A stretch of DNA of 51,363 nt from Candidatus Uhrbacteria bacterium (GTDB lineage: Bacteria; Patescibacteriota; Patescibacteriia; UBA9934), in NCBI GenBank assembly GCA_943358395.1, contig CALRGY010000004.1, positions 1-51,363 of the forward strand, in the 5' to 3' direction. The notes under the pieces are model-generated. The model saw only the letters and a list, made by a program, of their open reading frames with translations. It made no database searches and was not told the DNA's origin. Shown here piece after piece: positions 34,964 through 47,394 of this stretch (its first letter is position 1; the number at the start of each line of letters is the position of its first letter). The position numbers were made by a program, and so were the translations under genes.

Positions 34964-35048
34964 CTTTTCCGAGGCGTTTCGAGCGTAAAAGTTACCAACT
35001 CCAACCAGCCTGGACGCCCCACGACCGTTGCGGCATTCCTTGTGTTGT

Positions 35049-36389
35049 ATGGAAAATACGAGGTCAGTAATAGTGGCACCAGCACGCACACATCACGAAC
35101 AGGAAAAGGCGGTGGTTGAGGAGAAAATCCGCTATTGCCTCTACGCTCGTAAGTCGACGGAATCCGAGGAGCGGCAAATACTGTCCATCGACTCGCAGAT
35201 CAAGGAGATGCTTCAACTTGCCGAGCGCGAAGGACTCGACGTGGCTGAAATCCGGCGCGAGAGCCATTCGGCAAAGTCGACGGGGCAACGACCCATTTAC
35301 AACGAACTTCTCGCCGACATCCGCCAACGAAAATTTGGCGGCATTCTCACCTGGGCACCAGATCGATTAAGCCGTAACGCGGGCGACCTCGGGGCCATCG
35401 TGGATTTGATGGATCAAGGACTCCTCCACGAAATCCGCACCTACGGCCAGCGATTCACCAATTCGCCCAACGAAAAGTTCATGCTCATGATTCTTGGCTC
35501 GACCGCCAAGCTAGAAAACGATCATCGCGGCGAGAACGTGAAACGCGGATTACGCACAAGAGTCGAGATGGGGCTGTGGCCAGGCGTGGCACCGCTCGGC
35601 TATTTGAATCAAGGGCTTATGGATAAGAAATGCCAAGTCATCATTGACCCAGTCCGCGCGCCAATCATCAAACAGATGTTTGAGAAACTCGCCTACGAGA
35701 AATGGAGTGGACGCAAGATCTATAACTGGCTCAGGCACGACCTTAACTTCAAAACCCGTGGCAACAAAACCTTAACCCTCGGTGGTGTCTACCGTGTTCT
35801 CGATAATCCCTTTTACTACGGCAAATTCGAGCGTCCCCGCGACAGCGGCAATTGGTATGACGGCAAACACAAACCGATCATCACGAAAGAGCTTTTTGAC
35901 CTCGGCCAAACCCAGCTCAAACGTGACCAGATCGTGCGCGAAAATAAAGAATTTGCGTTCACTAAACTGTTCACATGTGGCCTGTGCCAATCTGGCATCT
36001 CGGCCGAGGACAAGTATAAGAAACTTCGTGACGGCACGACGGCGCACTACGTTTACTACGGCTGCACTCGGGCAAGAGATCGTGATTGCAAAAACCAATA
36101 CATCCGCGAGGAAGAACTCATCGCCGAACTCCTCAAGATTTTCGATCAGATCAACATCAACGAACTGGGCATGAAAACCAAGCTCGAGGATGAAATCAAG
36201 CGGTTTAGCCACTTCCAAAGAACCGTCTTCGGTTCTGACGGCACGCAAGAAGCCGACGAGGCGGAGGTAAATATTCGGGCATATGCGAAATATCTATTGC
36301 GGAAAGGTAGTATTTCCGAAAAGCGGGAGTTGCTCGGGAATTTGCGGAGCAGGTTGATCTACAAAAACAAAGGTTTAACACTCATGTGA
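35049..36389 (+). CDS. Large serine recombinase with zinc-ribbon/recombinase domains
   Basis: YCLYARKSTESEERQILSIDSQIKEM (catalytic Ser), GGILTWAPDRLSRNAGD, GLRTRVEMGLWPGVAPLGYLN, FTCGLCQSGISAEDK. Confidence 0.95.
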   Translation: MENTRSVIVAPARTHHEQEKAVVEEKIRYCLYARKSTESEERQILSIDSQIKEMLQLAEREGLDVAEIRRESHSAKSTGQRPIYNELLADIRQRKFGGILTWAPDRLSRNAGDLGAIVDLMDQGLLHEIRTYGQRFTNSPNEKFMLMILGSTAKLENDHRGENVKRGLRTRVEMGLWPGVAPLGYLNQGLMDKKCQVIIDPVRAPIIKQMFEKLAYEKWSGRKIYNWLRHDLNFKTRGNKTLTLGGVYRVLDNPFYYGKFERPRDSGNWYDGKHKPIITKELFDLGQTQLKRDQIVRENKEFAFTKLFTCGLCQSGISAEDKYKKLRDGTTAHYVYYGCTRARDRDCKNQYIREEELIAELLKIFDQININELGMKTKLEDEIKRFSHFQRTVFGSDGTQEADEAEVNIRAYAKYLLRKGSISEKRELLGNLRSRLIYKNKGLTLM

Positions 36390-38863: not shown

Positions 38864-38990
38864 GGGTGTTGGTGCTAGCCTTTTGCAGGAAAACACGTGG
38901 CGAACGCCCGAAAAAGTATCATGAATGGGGGAGAATGGCAATTGAAGATGGGAGAGAATTTTGATGCAAAAGCCTGAAATATGGTATTCT

Positions 38991-39005
38991 TGTACAAAAT
39001 GTACA
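38991..39005. promoter_or_regulatory. Candidate operator palindrome upstream of toxin-antitoxin pair
   Basis: tgtac-aaaat-gtaca perfect inverted repeat 3 bp before the antitoxin ATG. Confidence 0.45.
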
Positions 39006-39007
39006 TT

Positions 39008-39259
39008 ATGCGTATTCATACAACAACGGCAGCACGAAAAGATCTGGCACGGCTTGTGAACTTGGTGAAGTTTACCCGAAAGCCTGTTGCGATTGGGCGG
39101 CGGAATGCTGCGGACGTGTTGATGATTAAATTTCCAGACCACGCCAATGTGCACGTGACCGATGAAACAAATATGAATCAATATGGCGGCGGCTTTGATT
39201 TTCTTAATGCTGAGCCAGAGCTCTACACACGAAAAGACTTGAAGAAGTCGTATGTTTGA
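39008..39259 (+). CDS. Putative antitoxin (Phd/YefM-like) of MazF-type pair
   Basis: MRIHTTTAARKDLARLVNLVKFTRKPVAIGRRNAADVLMIKF; overlaps the toxin start. Confidence 0.65.
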   Translation: MRIHTTTAARKDLARLVNLVKFTRKPVAIGRRNAADVLMIKFPDHANVHVTDETNMNQYGGGFDFLNAEPELYTRKDLKKSYV

Positions 39260-39590
39260 ACGTGGAAAAATTGTGCTTGTCCCATTTCCGTTTACCGATC
39301 TTTCTGCACAAAAAGTTCGTCCAGCACTCATTGTTTCGTCAACGCACGCGGGTAAGGCAGATGTTATCGTTGCGTTTATTGGATCATCTGTTCCTCAGAA
39401 AATAGCAAAGAGCATTGTTGCGCTCCCTGCAACAAAAATATCGGGACTGAAAGTGCCGTCGTGTTTGTATTCCGATAAGATTGCAACGCTTGATCGAAAT
39501 ATTGTTTTGGGAGAAATTGGGTCTGTTACTCGCGTGCAAATGAAAGACATTGAAGTCGCCTTGTGTTTTTCATTAGGGATTGTGGCATAA
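39252..39590 (+). CDS. PemK/MazF-family toxin
   Basis: RGKIVLVPFPFTDLSAQKVRPALIVSSTHAGKADVIVAFIGS...LDRNIVLGEIGSVTRVQM. Confidence 0.9.
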   Translation: MFERGKIVLVPFPFTDLSAQKVRPALIVSSTHAGKADVIVAFIGSSVPQKIAKSIVALPATKISGLKVPSCLYSDKIATLDRNIVLGEIGSVTRVQMKDIEVALCFSLGIVA

Positions 39591-39632
39591 ATTCCTCACC
39601 GTTCTTTGAAATGCTTTATACTACTCAGTACT

Positions 39633-40502
39633 ATGAAGATTTCCAAAGCAATTATTCCTGTTGCAGGAATGGGAACGCGGTTTTTGCCGGCAACGAAGGC
39701 ACAGCCAAAAGAGATGTTACCGGTGGTGGATAAGCCGGTGATTCAATATATCGTGGAAGAAGCAGTGGCAGCGGGCATTGAGGAGATTATTTTCGTGACG
39801 GCTATTGGGAAGCGAGCGCTTGAGGATCACTTTGATCGAAACTTTGAATTGGAGTATCGGCTTGAACAAAAGAAGATGTTTAAGGAATTGGAGGCGATTG
39901 AGACCATCGGCAAGCTGGCGAAGTTTGCATTCGTCCGCCAGCAGAAACCTTTGGGCGATGGTCACGCCATTCTTGCGGCTGCACCATTTGTGGGCGATGA
40001 TGAATCGGTGGCGATTTTTTTTGGCGATGACATCATTGACGGGGCGACGCCGGCGATTGGTCAGCTCATTGAGACGTACAACCGTCAGAACGGTCCCGTT
40101 ATTGCGCTGCAACAGGTACCGAAAACATCGGTATCGAGGTATGGCGTGATCGCTGGATCGGAGCTTGGTGATCGCGAGTGGAGCATTTCGAAGTTTGTCG
40201 AAAAGCCAAAGCCGGAAGAAGCGCCGTCAAATCTTGCGTTTGTTGGTCGAGCAATTCTTACGCCGGAGATTCTCAAGCTTCTTGCAACACAGGAGCCTGG
40301 AAAAGATGGCGAGATTCGTCTTGCTGATGCGCTTGGTACGCATCTTGCGAACGGCGGAAAACTCTACGGTAACGAGTTCATCGGCGACCGTTACGACTGT
40401 GGAAATAAGCTCCAATTCGTGATTGCGCAAATCCAGATGGGTATGAAACATCCGGAAGTGGAGGAAGGGCTGCGGGCATATTTGAAAACAGTGAAAGTGT
40501 AA
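39633..40502 (+). CDS. galU: UTP-glucose-1-phosphate uridylyltransferase
   Basis: KAIIPVAGMGTRFLPATKAQPKEMLPVVDKPVIQYIVEEAVAAGIEEIIFVT. Confidence 0.95.
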   Translation: MKISKAIIPVAGMGTRFLPATKAQPKEMLPVVDKPVIQYIVEEAVAAGIEEIIFVTAIGKRALEDHFDRNFELEYRLEQKKMFKELEAIETIGKLAKFAFVRQQKPLGDGHAILAAAPFVGDDESVAIFFGDDIIDGATPAIGQLIETYNRQNGPVIALQQVPKTSVSRYGVIAGSELGDREWSISKFVEKPKPEEAPSNLAFVGRAILTPEILKLLATQEPGKDGEIRLADALGTHLANGGKLYGNEFIGDRYDCGNKLQFVIAQIQMGMKHPEVEEGLRAYLKTVKV

Positions 40503-40510
40503 TATTTTTT

Positions 40511-41917
40511 ATGCGAATCCATCGATTTCTTAGCAGCGCTCTTCTCTTTGTCACCTTGATGACCACGGGTGCTGGATGCTTGGGTGGCAGCGCGGCACCA
40601 ACGTCAACAAAAATAACGTTGAACGTGTGGGGCGTGTTTGATGATACTGATGCGTGGAAAACGCTTATTGAAACGTATCGCACCGTGCACCCAAATGTTA
40701 CTGTGCAATATACCAAGTTGCGATTTGAGGACTATCAAGACGAGCTTATTCGTGCAATTGCAGAAGGGAAGGGCCCGGACGTGATGGCGGTGCACAATAC
40801 ATGGCTTGGCGGGTTTACAAACCTTCTTGCGCCCATGCCAGACGCGGTGAATGTTACACGCCTGGAAACGCAAGGCACATTGCGCAAGGAGTCTGTATTG
40901 GTTTCAACATCGCAAGCCACGATGAGTATGAAGGCGCTCAAGCAGAACTTTGTTCCTGCGGTGATCGACGACGTGGTTATGCCGTACTTGGCGAATGAAA
41001 AGGCAGATCCCGTCGATAAAATCTATGCGTTGCCGATGGCGATGGATACGTTGGCGCTTTTTTACAATCAAGACCTGTTAAATGCAGCGGGCATTCCTCA
41101 GCCACCAGCCACATGGAAAGATTTTCAAGAAGCCGTAAAGTCGCTCACGAAAATCGATACCATGGGGAAGGTATTGCAATCAGGTGTTGGGCTTGGAACG
41201 TCGGAAAACGTTGAGCGCGCTTCCGATATTCTCTCGGTACTGATGATGCAGAATGGCGTGGAAATGGTAGACGAACGTGGACGAGTAACGCTGAACGACG
41301 TACCAGACGGCACGCCCCGCGGCCAGGAGCCTGGTGTGGACGCAGTGCGCTTCTATACCGACTTCGCGAACCCTACAAAAGAGGTATACACCTGGAATGC
41401 AACGATGCCATCGTCGTTAGATGCGTTTGTGAACGGCCAAGCGGGAATGTTCTTGGGGTATAGCTATCACTTGCCGATTATTCGTACGTTGGCACCAAAA
41501 TTGAATGTTGCGGTTGCGGCATTGCCACAAATCAGCACCGCAGATCAAACGCGCCAAGTGAATTACGGCAATTATTGGGCAGAAGGCGTTTCTAAAGACT
41601 CAAAATATCAAGACTACGCATGGGACTTTGTGCTGTTTGCCACGAACGAAGCAAACGTAGGCACGTATCTTGCGGATGCAAAGAAGCCAACGGCACTGCG
41701 CTCACTTATTGCCAGTCAGCTCAACGATGAAGATTTAGGCGTGTTTGCATCGCAGCTTTTAACGGCGCGCACTTGGTACCGTGGTACAGATGTGAATGCA
41801 CAGGAACATGCGATGAACACACTCATCGACGATTTTCTTGGCAATACGTATAGCGACGACCCGCAAAAGGCGTTAGACACCGCTGCGCGCGTTATCGCTC
41901 AAACCTATTTGAAATAG
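40511..41917 (+). CDS. Extracellular solute-binding lipoprotein (ABC family 1-like)
   Basis: Lipobox TGAGC; ITLNVWGVFDDTDAWKTLIETYRTVHPNVTVQYTKL, MAMDTLALFYNQDLLNAAGIPQPPATWKDF. Confidence 0.9.
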   Translation: MRIHRFLSSALLFVTLMTTGAGCLGGSAAPTSTKITLNVWGVFDDTDAWKTLIETYRTVHPNVTVQYTKLRFEDYQDELIRAIAEGKGPDVMAVHNTWLGGFTNLLAPMPDAVNVTRLETQGTLRKESVLVSTSQATMSMKALKQNFVPAVIDDVVMPYLANEKADPVDKIYALPMAMDTLALFYNQDLLNAAGIPQPPATWKDFQEAVKSLTKIDTMGKVLQSGVGLGTSENVERASDILSVLMMQNGVEMVDERGRVTLNDVPDGTPRGQEPGVDAVRFYTDFANPTKEVYTWNATMPSSLDAFVNGQAGMFLGYSYHLPIIRTLAPKLNVAVAALPQISTADQTRQVNYGNYWAEGVSKDSKYQDYAWDFVLFATNEANVGTYLADAKKPTALRSLIASQLNDEDLGVFASQLLTARTWYRGTDVNAQEHAMNTLIDDFLGNTYSDDPQKALDTAARVIAQTYLK

Positions 41918-41948
41918 GACATCATTCATCGTGCTATACTTTTCCTAT

Positions 41949-42464
41949 ATGTTCCGATCGCTTCGATTTGTGCTGTGCGGAGCTGCGCTGCTTGGCGTAT
42001 TCGGATTTGGTGCACCAATTCCCGTGGCGCACGCAGCGAATTCATATGGAGACATTACATCGCAAGGGATCATCTTTGCAGTAATTTGTACAAGCAAAGA
42101 CGCAGCATGTCCGTGTCGTGATACTGGCGACTGCACCCTAGATCACGCTCTGCAGGTCTTCGTAAATCTTTCCACATTCATTCTTGGCATCAGCGGCTCA
42201 GCAGTACTCTTCGTCTTTATTTACGGGGGTTTTAAGTGGATAATTGCTCGAGGTGATCATAAAAACATTCATTCTGGAACCCAGGCGATAACTGCTGGAG
42301 TCATCGGTCTCCTCATCATCTTTGGTGCATATGTTGCCATCAATTTCATCGTTTCTGGTTTAACCACGCCAACCGGAGAAGCGCCGAAGTCAGATGAGCT
42401 CGAAAAGACCGTGAATCAAGGGCTCACGGGCGGGAAGGGTGTGGAAGTGTTTGAAACCGAATAA
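41949..42464 (+). CDS. VirB2/TrbC-like (pilin-like) membrane protein, member 1, with Cys-rich insertion
   Basis: Signal peptide ending AHAA; CTSKDAACPCRDTGDC; LFVFIYGGFKWIIARGDHKNIHSGTQAITAGVIGLLIIFGAYVAINFI. Confidence 0.75.
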   Translation: MFRSLRFVLCGAALLGVFGFGAPIPVAHAANSYGDITSQGIIFAVICTSKDAACPCRDTGDCTLDHALQVFVNLSTFILGISGSAVLFVFIYGGFKWIIARGDHKNIHSGTQAITAGVIGLLIIFGAYVAINFIVSGLTTPTGEAPKSDELEKTVNQGLTGGKGVEVFETE

Positions 42465-42471
42465 TGCATTT

Positions 42472-42813
42472 ATGAAAAAACTGCTCTCTTTCCTGTTTGC
42501 CACCGTTCTTCTCACGATGCCGTCATTTGTCCATGCCGTTGCACTCGTGAACCCCCTTGGTAACGATGTTCTCGATGTCCGCCTGCTCTTTGCGCGGGTT
42601 ATCTCTGCTGCGCTGTCCATCGTGGGATCATTAGCGCTCCTCATGTTCGTGTACGGCGGTGTGCTGTGGATGACGTCGCGGGGGGAGACGAAGCAAGTGA
42701 CGAAGGGAAAAGATACTATTATGTGGGCAACGCTCGGTTTGGTGATTATCTTCGCATCGTACACGTTGGTCGCGGCCTTGATCCAAGGCATCACCACCGG
42801 TAGCGCGGCGTGA
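42472..42813 (+). CDS. VirB2/TrbC-like (pilin-like) protein, member 2
   Basis: Signal peptide; LLMFVYGGVLWMTSRGETKQVTKGKDTIMWATLGLVIIFASYTLVAALI. Confidence 0.75.
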   Translation: MKKLLSFLFATVLLTMPSFVHAVALVNPLGNDVLDVRLLFARVISAALSIVGSLALLMFVYGGVLWMTSRGETKQVTKGKDTIMWATLGLVIIFASYTLVAALIQGITTGSAA

Positions 42814-42844
42814 TATACTTTCCATAACCTTTATTTCTTTCTTT

Positions 42845-43246
42845 ATGATGAAGTCGATATTTCGTTTCGCGGTGAGCGTGGCACTGGGCTTGGCAATCTC
42901 ACTTCCATTCGTGGGGCTGAATATGGTGCGTGCCGCAAGTGGTCCGCTAGAGGCAAGCGATTTACTCAGCCAAGACTTTGGTGATTCCACCGGCCTTGGT
43001 CAAGGCGAGCTCACGGAAACTATCGGATCACTCATCCGCGTTGCTCTGGGATTCCTCGGAGTCGTTGCTGTGGTGATTATTCTCTTGGGTGGCTTTAAGT
43101 GGATGACGGCTGGTGGGAACGACGAGAAAGTTGGCGAAGCAAAGAAGCTCATTATTGCCGGCATTATCGGCTTAGCGATTATTCTCTCTGCATACGCCAT
43201 CGCATCGTTCGTCATTGGATCCATCGTTGGTGCAACCGCAGGATAA
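42845..43246 (+). CDS. VirB2/TrbC-like (pilin-like) protein, member 3
   Basis: VVIILLGGFKWMTAGGNDEKVGEAKKLIIAGIIGLAIILSAYAIASFVIGSI. Confidence 0.8.
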   Translation: MMKSIFRFAVSVALGLAISLPFVGLNMVRAASGPLEASDLLSQDFGDSTGLGQGELTETIGSLIRVALGFLGVVAVVIILLGGFKWMTAGGNDEKVGEAKKLIIAGIIGLAIILSAYAIASFVIGSIVGATAG

Positions 43247-43263
43247 GTTCTCTCATTGCGCTC

Positions 43264-43286
43264 GCCCCGAAGCGTTGTTTCGGGGC
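43264..43286 (+). other. Hairpin between members 3 and 4, no T-tract
   Basis: gccccgaa-gcgttgt-ttcggggc perfect 8-bp stem. Confidence 0.5.
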
Positions 43287-43293
43287 CTGCACT

Positions 43294-43671
43294 ATGCGAA
43301 AACGCTTTGGAATATTTGGGGCCGCTATCGGATTATTGTCGCCATTCATGGCATATGCCGCAATCGGTGTAGAAAATACCGGACTTAGTGCAACGGGGAA
43401 TGCCGCTTTTAGTACTACAGGAGCTACAAGTCTTTCCACCTTCATTGGTTTTTATATTATTCAGCCAGTATTCGGTTTGATTGGCTTACTCTTTTTCTGC
43501 TTGTCACTCTACGCGGGTATTTTATGGATGACGGCGCGTGGCGATACCAAAAAGGTGGACAGCGCAAAGAACATTTTGGTATCGTCAACGATTGGCTTGG
43601 TGATTATTGTGGCATCGTATGTGCTAACCAATGCAGTGTTGGGCGCAATAACAACGGGGTCGATAACATAA
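43294..43671 (+). CDS. VirB2/TrbC-like (pilin-like) protein, member 4
   Basis: MRKRFGIFGAAIGLLSPFMAYA...FFCLSLYAGILWMTARGDTKKVDSAKNILVSSTIGLVIIVASYVLTNAVL; start corrected from the track. Confidence 0.8.
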   Translation: MRKRFGIFGAAIGLLSPFMAYAAIGVENTGLSATGNAAFSTTGATSLSTFIGFYIIQPVFGLIGLLFFCLSLYAGILWMTARGDTKKVDSAKNILVSSTIGLVIIVASYVLTNAVLGAITTGSIT

Positions 43672-43678
43672 TTTGTTT

Positions 43679-43999
43679 ATGGCAAATCCCTTTATCGATT
43701 CTCTTGCGCTCCCGAACGCCGCCAGTAAAGCCTATGGCGGCACTGCACCGGTAGAAAATATCTTTACTCTTACGGGTTCAGTATTGAAGGGAGCATTTAG
43801 TGTGCTGGGGCTGCTGTTCCTTCTTTTGTTCTTGTACGCAGGGTATTTGTGGATGACGGCGATGGGTGACCCAAAGAAAGTGACGAAGGCAAAGGACATT
43901 TTGCAGCAGTCGTTTATTGGCTTGGTGATTATTCTCTCGTCATATGGATTGTCCTATTTTGTCCTTTCATTACTCGATAAGTCCGTGAACGGGACGTAG
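43679..43999 (+). CDS. VirB2/TrbC-like (pilin-like) protein, member 5 (no obvious signal peptide)
   Basis: LLLFLYAGYLWMTAMGDPKKVTKAKDILQQSFIGLVIILSSYGLSYFVLSLL. Confidence 0.75.
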   Translation: MANPFIDSLALPNAASKAYGGTAPVENIFTLTGSVLKGAFSVLGLLFLLLFLYAGYLWMTAMGDPKKVTKAKDILQQSFIGLVIILSSYGLSYFVLSLLDKSVNGT

Positions 44000-44066
44000 G
44001 GAAGAATCATCCACAGTCATTGATCGATGATCGTGATACACTATTCACATAATTTTCTTACCTTGT

Positions 44067-44456
44067 ATGCAAAAGCTCAAGAACATCCTCATTGGTGCCG
44101 CGCTCGTTGTTTTGCCCCTTGGTGCTGCAATGCATGTTCCTTTCGCTCACGCAGACTCTGCGCTCAGTGCAAACTTGAGTGATGTGAATGCAAGCGGTGG
44201 ACTTGGCTCTGCAGATCTGACCGACACCATTGGTTCATTGATCGCTGCATTGCTGAGTGTACTTGGTGTTATTTTCTTGCTCTTGATCATCTGGGCAGGA
44301 TTCAAGTGGATGACAGCACAGGGCGATCCAAAGAAAGTTACTGCAGCTAGAGACATTCTTGTCACCGCCGTGGTTGGTCTCATCATTCTCCTTTCCGCCT
44401 ACGCTATCAGCACATTCGTTATCGAAAGCCTCACAAAGGCAACGGGAACGGCATAG
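44067..44456 (+). CDS. VirB2/TrbC-like (pilin-like) protein, member 6
   Basis: LLLIIWAGFKWMTAQGDPKKVTAARDILVTAVVGLIILLSAYAISTFVIESL. Confidence 0.8.
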   Translation: MQKLKNILIGAALVVLPLGAAMHVPFAHADSALSANLSDVNASGGLGSADLTDTIGSLIAALLSVLGVIFLLLIIWAGFKWMTAQGDPKKVTAARDILVTAVVGLIILLSAYAISTFVIESLTKATGTA

Positions 44457-44483: not shown

Positions 44484-44513
44484 GAAAAAGCGATCCGAAA
44501 TGGATCGCTTTTT
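44484..44513 (+). terminator. Terminator after the pilin-like cluster
   Basis: aaaaagcgatccgaaatggatcgctttttc. Confidence 0.85.
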
Positions 44514-47350: not shown

Positions 47351-47394
47351 AGATACTGCAAAGTGTATCAAATTTGCTATACTCGAAGAGTCAT

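Follow-up and report, generated by a model that had tools for sequence, protein, structure and literature searches.

A conserved array of VirB2-like genes and an adjoining solute-binding lipoprotein suggest a fixed multi-part surface machine in Candidatus Uhrbacteria

It is an open question by what means ultrasmall, host-dependent bacteria cling to other cells and feed from them, and a T4SS with a series of pilins is one of a small number of machines with a demonstrated essential part in this (Southlakia, PMC10633639). Candidatus Uhrbacteria is ultrasmall too, and probably host-dependent. A 51,363-nucleotide stretch of one of its genomes (hereafter the window) carries six short pilin-like genes in tandem behind a gene for a solute-binding lipoprotein (SBP). 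The question raised by this locus is whether the six genes encode interchangeable variants of one pilin or different parts of one machine.

The array and its pilin-like products

The genes considered are as follows.

39606..40502, + strand: galU-like nucleotidyltransferase (named from sequence), first in the galU-SBP-array run
40511..41917, + strand: solute-binding lipoprotein (SBP_bac_1, sugar type; PF01547, 105 bits), apparently orphan
41949..42464, + strand: p1, long Cys-containing pilin-like protein with a C-terminal tail (171 aa; PF18895 23.1 bits, below cut-off)
42472..42813, + strand: p2, pilin-like, NPLG motif behind the signal peptide (113 aa; PF18895 39.8 bits)
42845..43246, + strand: p3, most conserved pilin-like subunit (133 aa; PF18895 40.8 bits)
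43294..43671, + strand: p4, pilin-like (125 aa; PF18895 31.0 bits)
43679..43999, + strand: p5, pilin-like, without an obvious signal peptide (106 aa; PF18895 43.4 bits)
44067..44456, + strand: p6, pilin-like, well conserved in the genus (129 aa; PF18895 39.8 bits)

A first-pass annotation of the window had claimed six consecutive same-strand open reading frames, and these were found on the + strand at 41949-44456, encoding proteins of 106-171 aa with intergenic gaps of 7, 31, 47, 7 and 67 bases from p1 to p6. The curated cut-off of PF18895 (Pfam T4SS_pilin; 26.6 bits) is passed by five of the six genes (genes 2-6), and gene 1 falls just short. None of the six reaches the cut-off of PF04956 (TrbC/VirB2; 27.9 bits), the family named at first pass, the best score being 19.5 for gene 2. 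Weak Pfam matches such as FixQ, DUF350 and DctQ were discarded as membrane-helix noise.

The paralogues are 22-31% identical to gene 1 and share nine invariant columns, including G83, G94, W97, G102, G120 and Y128. The conserved part is a helix-loop-helix, as the proposed common architecture implied, except that gene 1 carries W-I-I in place of the W-M-T motif and has a C-terminal extension; the signal peptide described as usual is not obvious in gene 5. The segment ahead of the first helix, described as highly variable, is so between paralogues, whereas between orthologues it is recognisably conserved. An AlphaFold2 model of gene 3 built from 67 sequences contains helices at 56-88 and 93-132 with block mean pLDDT values of 90-96 across residues 61-120, a confident helical hairpin of the kind expected for VirB2/TrbC-like proteins. 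A Foldseek search with this model returned no solved structure at E <= 0.001, which may be expected for a bare hairpin; the best match, ATP synthase subunit c (E 0.95), was set aside as a generic hairpin match. The p3 alignment profile gave only chance matches to solved structures.

Conservation, orthology and expression signals

PF18895 matches occur in all 40 genomes compared (the source genome and 39 relatives) and in 189 of the 193 genomes sampled from the phylum. In the window and in 31 relatives, five or six small genes stand in an array; further arrays comprise one split over two contigs (L062/L063) and those of two more genomes. Because the family is present in 40/40 genomes and arrays are read across relatives, the array is not a chance arrangement, and the first-pass reading, which turned on conservation in relatives, is upheld on this point. 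In the sample of four families, five genes is the prevailing array size in three.

The 182 array proteins were placed in a tree on 128 usable columns, in which many of the deep forks are unresolved. All p3 rows (33/33) form one clade with a support of 99, and 33 of 34 p1 rows and 33 of 34 p2 rows group with their own kind. The odd p1 and p2 rows stem from L062, an array fragment beginning at a contig end. Mapped on the tree, the position label changes 16 times, against a shuffled mean of 116.7. Genes 4-6 form no clean orthologue groups. Gene order was also read in 80 named loci spanning Uhrbacteria, Magasanikbacteria, Falkowbacteria and others; these loci were found via p3, which is therefore present by construction, and part of them share contigs with the training set, the Magasanikbacteria and Falkowbacteria loci lying outside it. 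The genes ahead of the first p3 are 1-2 (44 loci) or 1-2-2 (16 loci) in 60 of the 80, and those after p3 are almost only of the distal type, their number varying between loci. Judged from tree and gene order, genes 1, 2 and 3 are distinct orthologues whose order is kept across the taxonomic order, and the distal block is less fixed. This orthology and order speak against the variable repertoire proposed in the literature. In comparisons inside the genus, N-terminal segments show 49-79% identity (p3 79%, p6 74%, other array proteins 49-54%) compared with 68-97% for the core; by this measure they evolve faster than the core, yet are orthologous.

The following expression signals accompany the genes.

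41932..41940, + strand: extended -10 promoter-like motif TGCTATACT before gene 1 (motif scan)
42811..42819, + strand: extended -10 promoter-like motif TGATATACT before gene 3, in 5/5 genus genomes
43265..43285, + strand: RNA hairpin shortly 5' of the gene 4 start (read by eye)
44034..44042, + strand: extended -10 promoter-like motif TGATACACT before gene 6, in 5/5 genus genomes
44490..44513, + strand: terminator-like hairpin and T-run behind gene 6 (read by eye; absent from the scan listing)

The extended -10 motif TGNTAYACT occurs eight times in the window (1.0 expected), a count for a pattern picked after it had been seen before three array genes, so that its conservation in relatives is the better evidence. 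Among 17 six-gene arrays it precedes p1, p3 and p6 in 9, 12 and 13 cases and p2, p4 and p5 in 2, 0 and 0, with a background of 2.4%. A sigma-70 scan found 4 matches in the window, no real excess over the 3.4 expected from shuffled sequence. Because the extended motif mainly precedes p1, p3 and p6, it suggests the transcription units p1-p2, p3-p5 and p6, together with read-through from the SBP gene. The motif before p1 ends eight bases ahead of the ATG, so the p1 transcript may be leaderless. Stems similar to the hairpin before gene 4 are present in three of four genus relatives with bases changed yet pairing, and this hairpin is possibly a translational or processing element. A divergent pair of extended -10 motifs also lies at 47362-47383.

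The solute-binding lipoprotein, the T4SS and long pilin-headed proteins

The SBP gene, which the first-pass annotation listed as a mere neighbour, is indeed a neighbour, but it is in fact the most constant partner of the array. It lies directly 5' of p1 in 31 of 33 arrays (a script gave 30/34; L054, whose start had been called too early, was added by reading, and L062, which has no upstream sequence, was left out), and a galU homologue stands directly 5' of the SBP gene in most related arrays. Both exceptions come from one genus: in G016 the SBP gene is about 4 kb off on the same contig, and in G007 it is on another contig. A four-base overlap between the SBP gene and p1, as is typical of translationally coupled genes, is present in 11 arrays. 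At least 95% of 64 orthologues retain the lipobox cysteine (Cys23), and several aromatic residues are also kept among them. Farther upstream in the window, a Phd/YefM-like antitoxin (below cut-off) and a PemK/MazF-like toxin lie at 38981-39590 beside a tRNA-Ser gene, and a large serine recombinase, possibly a mobile element, lies at 35028-36389 close to polysaccharide and pilin genes.

The SBP is present in one copy in 35 of the 40 genomes, comprising 35/35 of those with the array and 0/5 of those without it. The five genomes missing it (G010, G013, G015, G020 and G029) have no small PF18895 frame, each match lying in a frame of at least 268 aa. They are drafts of 88-98% completeness, two of them from one genus, and since the SBP gene and the array are neighbours, one assembly gap removes both; the joint absences therefore cannot count as five independent losses. 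Assembly gaps could explain some of them.

The SBP-dependent ABC importer for sugars (CUT1 type) requires a BPD_transp_1 permease, and the source genome, a draft of 912,413 bases in 28 contigs and 97.6% complete, has no match to one (PF00528). This permease was likewise not found in 22 of 25 relatives, with controls found 14/14; in the class, 13 of 75 genomes have a PF00528 match and 62 have none. The search covered PF00528 among the ABC permease families. Because the source genome has no such match, the SBP looks orphan. Genes resembling a metal ABC transporter were read on contig C10. A second SBP, of oligopeptide type by sequence, is encoded on contig C2 (L077:3186-4721, - strand), at a distance of about 2 kb from the gene of a 482-aa protein with a pilin hairpin, likewise in this genome without a PF00528 permease. 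A literature search joining Patescibacteria/CPR, solute-binding proteins and pilins or T4SS found nothing.

The array lies on contig C4, and a VirB4 (NF045971, 342.9 bits against a cut-off of 325) is encoded on C10; its solved relative is 4ag5, a VirB4-like protein. C10 also holds PrgI and a TrsD-like protein (below the TrsD family cut-off), and a 1058-aa polytopic protein adjoining these T4SS genes is VirB6-like by position and hydrophobicity only. TraG-D_C, the domain of VirD4/TraG-type coupling proteins, has two matches over cut-off, on C12 and C15. The absence of VirB4/VirD4-type ATPases from the window was thus correctly noted, the VirB4-type and TraG-D_C searches matching other contigs only, but for the genome as a whole the hint that no T4SS accompanies the array is wrong. 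A search with PF03432, the one relaxase family used, gave no match in the genome. Four of the five genomes in which no array was detected keep VirB4, so retention of the T4SS does not depend on the array.

Hairpins of the T4SS pilin type also head long proteins. On C3, a 583-aa protein with an N-terminal hairpin and a Big_5 domain (L075:9401-11152, - strand) is encoded next to a protein of about 3,130 aa with an N-terminal hairpin and TIG, Big_5, DUF4215 and VWA domains (L075:2-9391, - strand), and the pair is conserved across the order. Full or near-full matches to the 583-aa protein (38-100% identity) occur in 36 of the 40 genomes, mostly with the giant frame adjacent, and long pilin-headed proteins persist in genomes in which no array was detected, for example G013, G015, G020 and G029. 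An AlphaFold2 model of the 583-aa protein from four sequences was unusable (mean pLDDT 37.7). PrgB-like adhesins were not detected in the published survey of patescibacterial arrays (PMC12102498); the pilin-headed pair are candidate adhesins. On C21, a 407-aa protein (L078:6155-7378, - strand) joins a hairpin to an M15 (D-Ala-D-Ala carboxypeptidase) domain and could be a VirB1-like cell-wall enzyme; its gene is next to recG/radA and the gene for a DsbA-like protein. This recG/radA neighbourhood, with a remark in PMC12102498, places the source genome probably in class ABY1. Repeats of the motifs D-x-D-G-D-G-Y and D-C-D-D, of calcium-binding style, occur in lipoprotein-like proteins encoded at L075:14316-15851 (- strand) and L077:1962-2657 (- strand).

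A proposed surface assembly and its relation to known systems

Taken together, the array and the SBP suggest a surface machine of several fixed parts and not a set of interchangeable variants. The explanation that we favour, and to which we give about an even chance, is that dedicated subunits and the SBP lipoprotein make up a heteromeric VirB2-like surface assembly, which would serve in host attachment or capture. This explanation builds on the hairpin-type subunits, the orthology and order of genes 1-3, the synteny of the SBP gene, the lack of a PF00528 match and the presence of a T4SS ATPase. The six genes would encode different, non-interchangeable subunits that assemble together, either as a short pilus of heteromeric make-up or as a complex anchored in the membrane. 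The VirB4/PrgI/TrsD-type T4SS, encoded on a contig other than that of the array, would presumably build them. The SBP would act with the assembly at the cell surface by binding a glycan or sugar, and, since no PF00528-type ABC importer was detected, its role would not be that of a receptor for one. The probable use is contact with a host cell or the capture of material from it. Counting against this explanation, no filament is known to have been seen in this lineage, the array and virB4 lie on different contigs, VirB4 is kept in genomes with no detected array, and genes 4-6 form no clean orthologue groups.

Of the readings offered at first pass, the multi-subunit surface filament or membrane complex is favoured, the array being conserved and gene 3 a hairpin, and the variable pilin repertoire is disfavoured. 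The latter, in which the paralogues are alternative versions serving host-range or antigenic variation (PMC12102498), would account for N-terminal segments that are very unlike between paralogues and faster-evolving than the core within the genus, and for a distal block that differs in gene number. It is nevertheless very improbable in view of the identity and fixed order that genes 1-3 hold across four families of the order and related groups, and of the conserved promoter-like motifs that genes 1, 3 and 6 each have upstream. A T4SS-derived uptake complex, in which a hairpin membrane channel takes the SBP substrate in place of an ABC permease, would fit the linkage of the SBP to the array, the absence of a PF00528 permease from the source genome and most relatives, and the aromatic residues of the SBP, which are expected to be kept if sugar binding persists. 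However, the run contains no ATPase or energy source, PF00528 matches are present in 13/75 genomes of the class, and we know of no precedent for uptake through such a channel, all of which make this reading decidedly unlikely.

It is rather unlikely that the subunits form a scaffold or anchor embedded in the membrane and never an extracellular filament, although PF18895 hairpins at the head of long proteins (the M15 peptidase, the Big_5 protein and the VWA giant) hint that the hairpin could serve generally as an anchor module. Against the scaffold stands the related and essential series in the T4SS cluster of Southlakia epibionticum, which is read as pilins (PMC10633639). A further and more tentative proposal, which we consider doubtful, is that the SBP has been freed from ABC transport to become the dedicated partner of the heteromeric VirB2-like assembly, the two giving a T4SS-derived organelle for capturing host glycans or solutes, with the giant pilin-headed proteins perhaps in or on the assembly.

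A tandem VirB2-like array as such is not new in Patescibacteria (PMC12102498, PMC10633639). A survey of 3,035 patescibacterial assemblies reported 441 VirB2 arrays of 2-11 genes in 383 of them, with a mean identity of 25%, and suggested that their variation suits different hosts (PMC12102498); in S. epibionticum, the pilin series of the T4SS cluster is essential (PMC10633639). The present locus likewise consists of tandem low-identity pilins of the PF18895/VirB2 type, with at least two such genes adjacent in a VirB4-bearing genome, and the published array genomes carry an MPF-FATA-like VirB4, usually without a relaxase. Unlike many published arrays, it lies far from virB4, proximity being common but not obligatory. 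It also differs in its upstream SBP lipoprotein and galU genes and in its position-specific orthologues; the main text of PMC12102498 uses none of the terms solute, ABC transporter or ortholog.

Among other systems, the Mbov_0395 pilin-like family of mycoplasma ICEs (NF045849) aligns with the same two-helix region at up to 38.2 bits (gene 6), which is below its cut-off of 40 bits, and no conjugative element is seen around the array. The TrbC/VirB2 conjugative pilins (PF04956) resemble the array products in their small size, signal peptide, two helices and short basic loop; they differ in the sub-threshold family score and in the lack of a PF03432 match in the genome. The Trw T4SS of Bartonella, with duplicated VirB2 and VirB5, offers a parallel of tandem divergent pilin paralogues for which antigenic variation has been proposed (PMC12857230), whereas in the present array at least three paralogues hold fixed positions. 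New here are the position-specific orthology, the partnership with an apparently orphan SBP and the giant pilin-headed pair. With fixed subunit roles, a constant SBP and pilin-headed giants, the variable-pilin idea becomes testable through the composition of the assembly and the ligand of the SBP.
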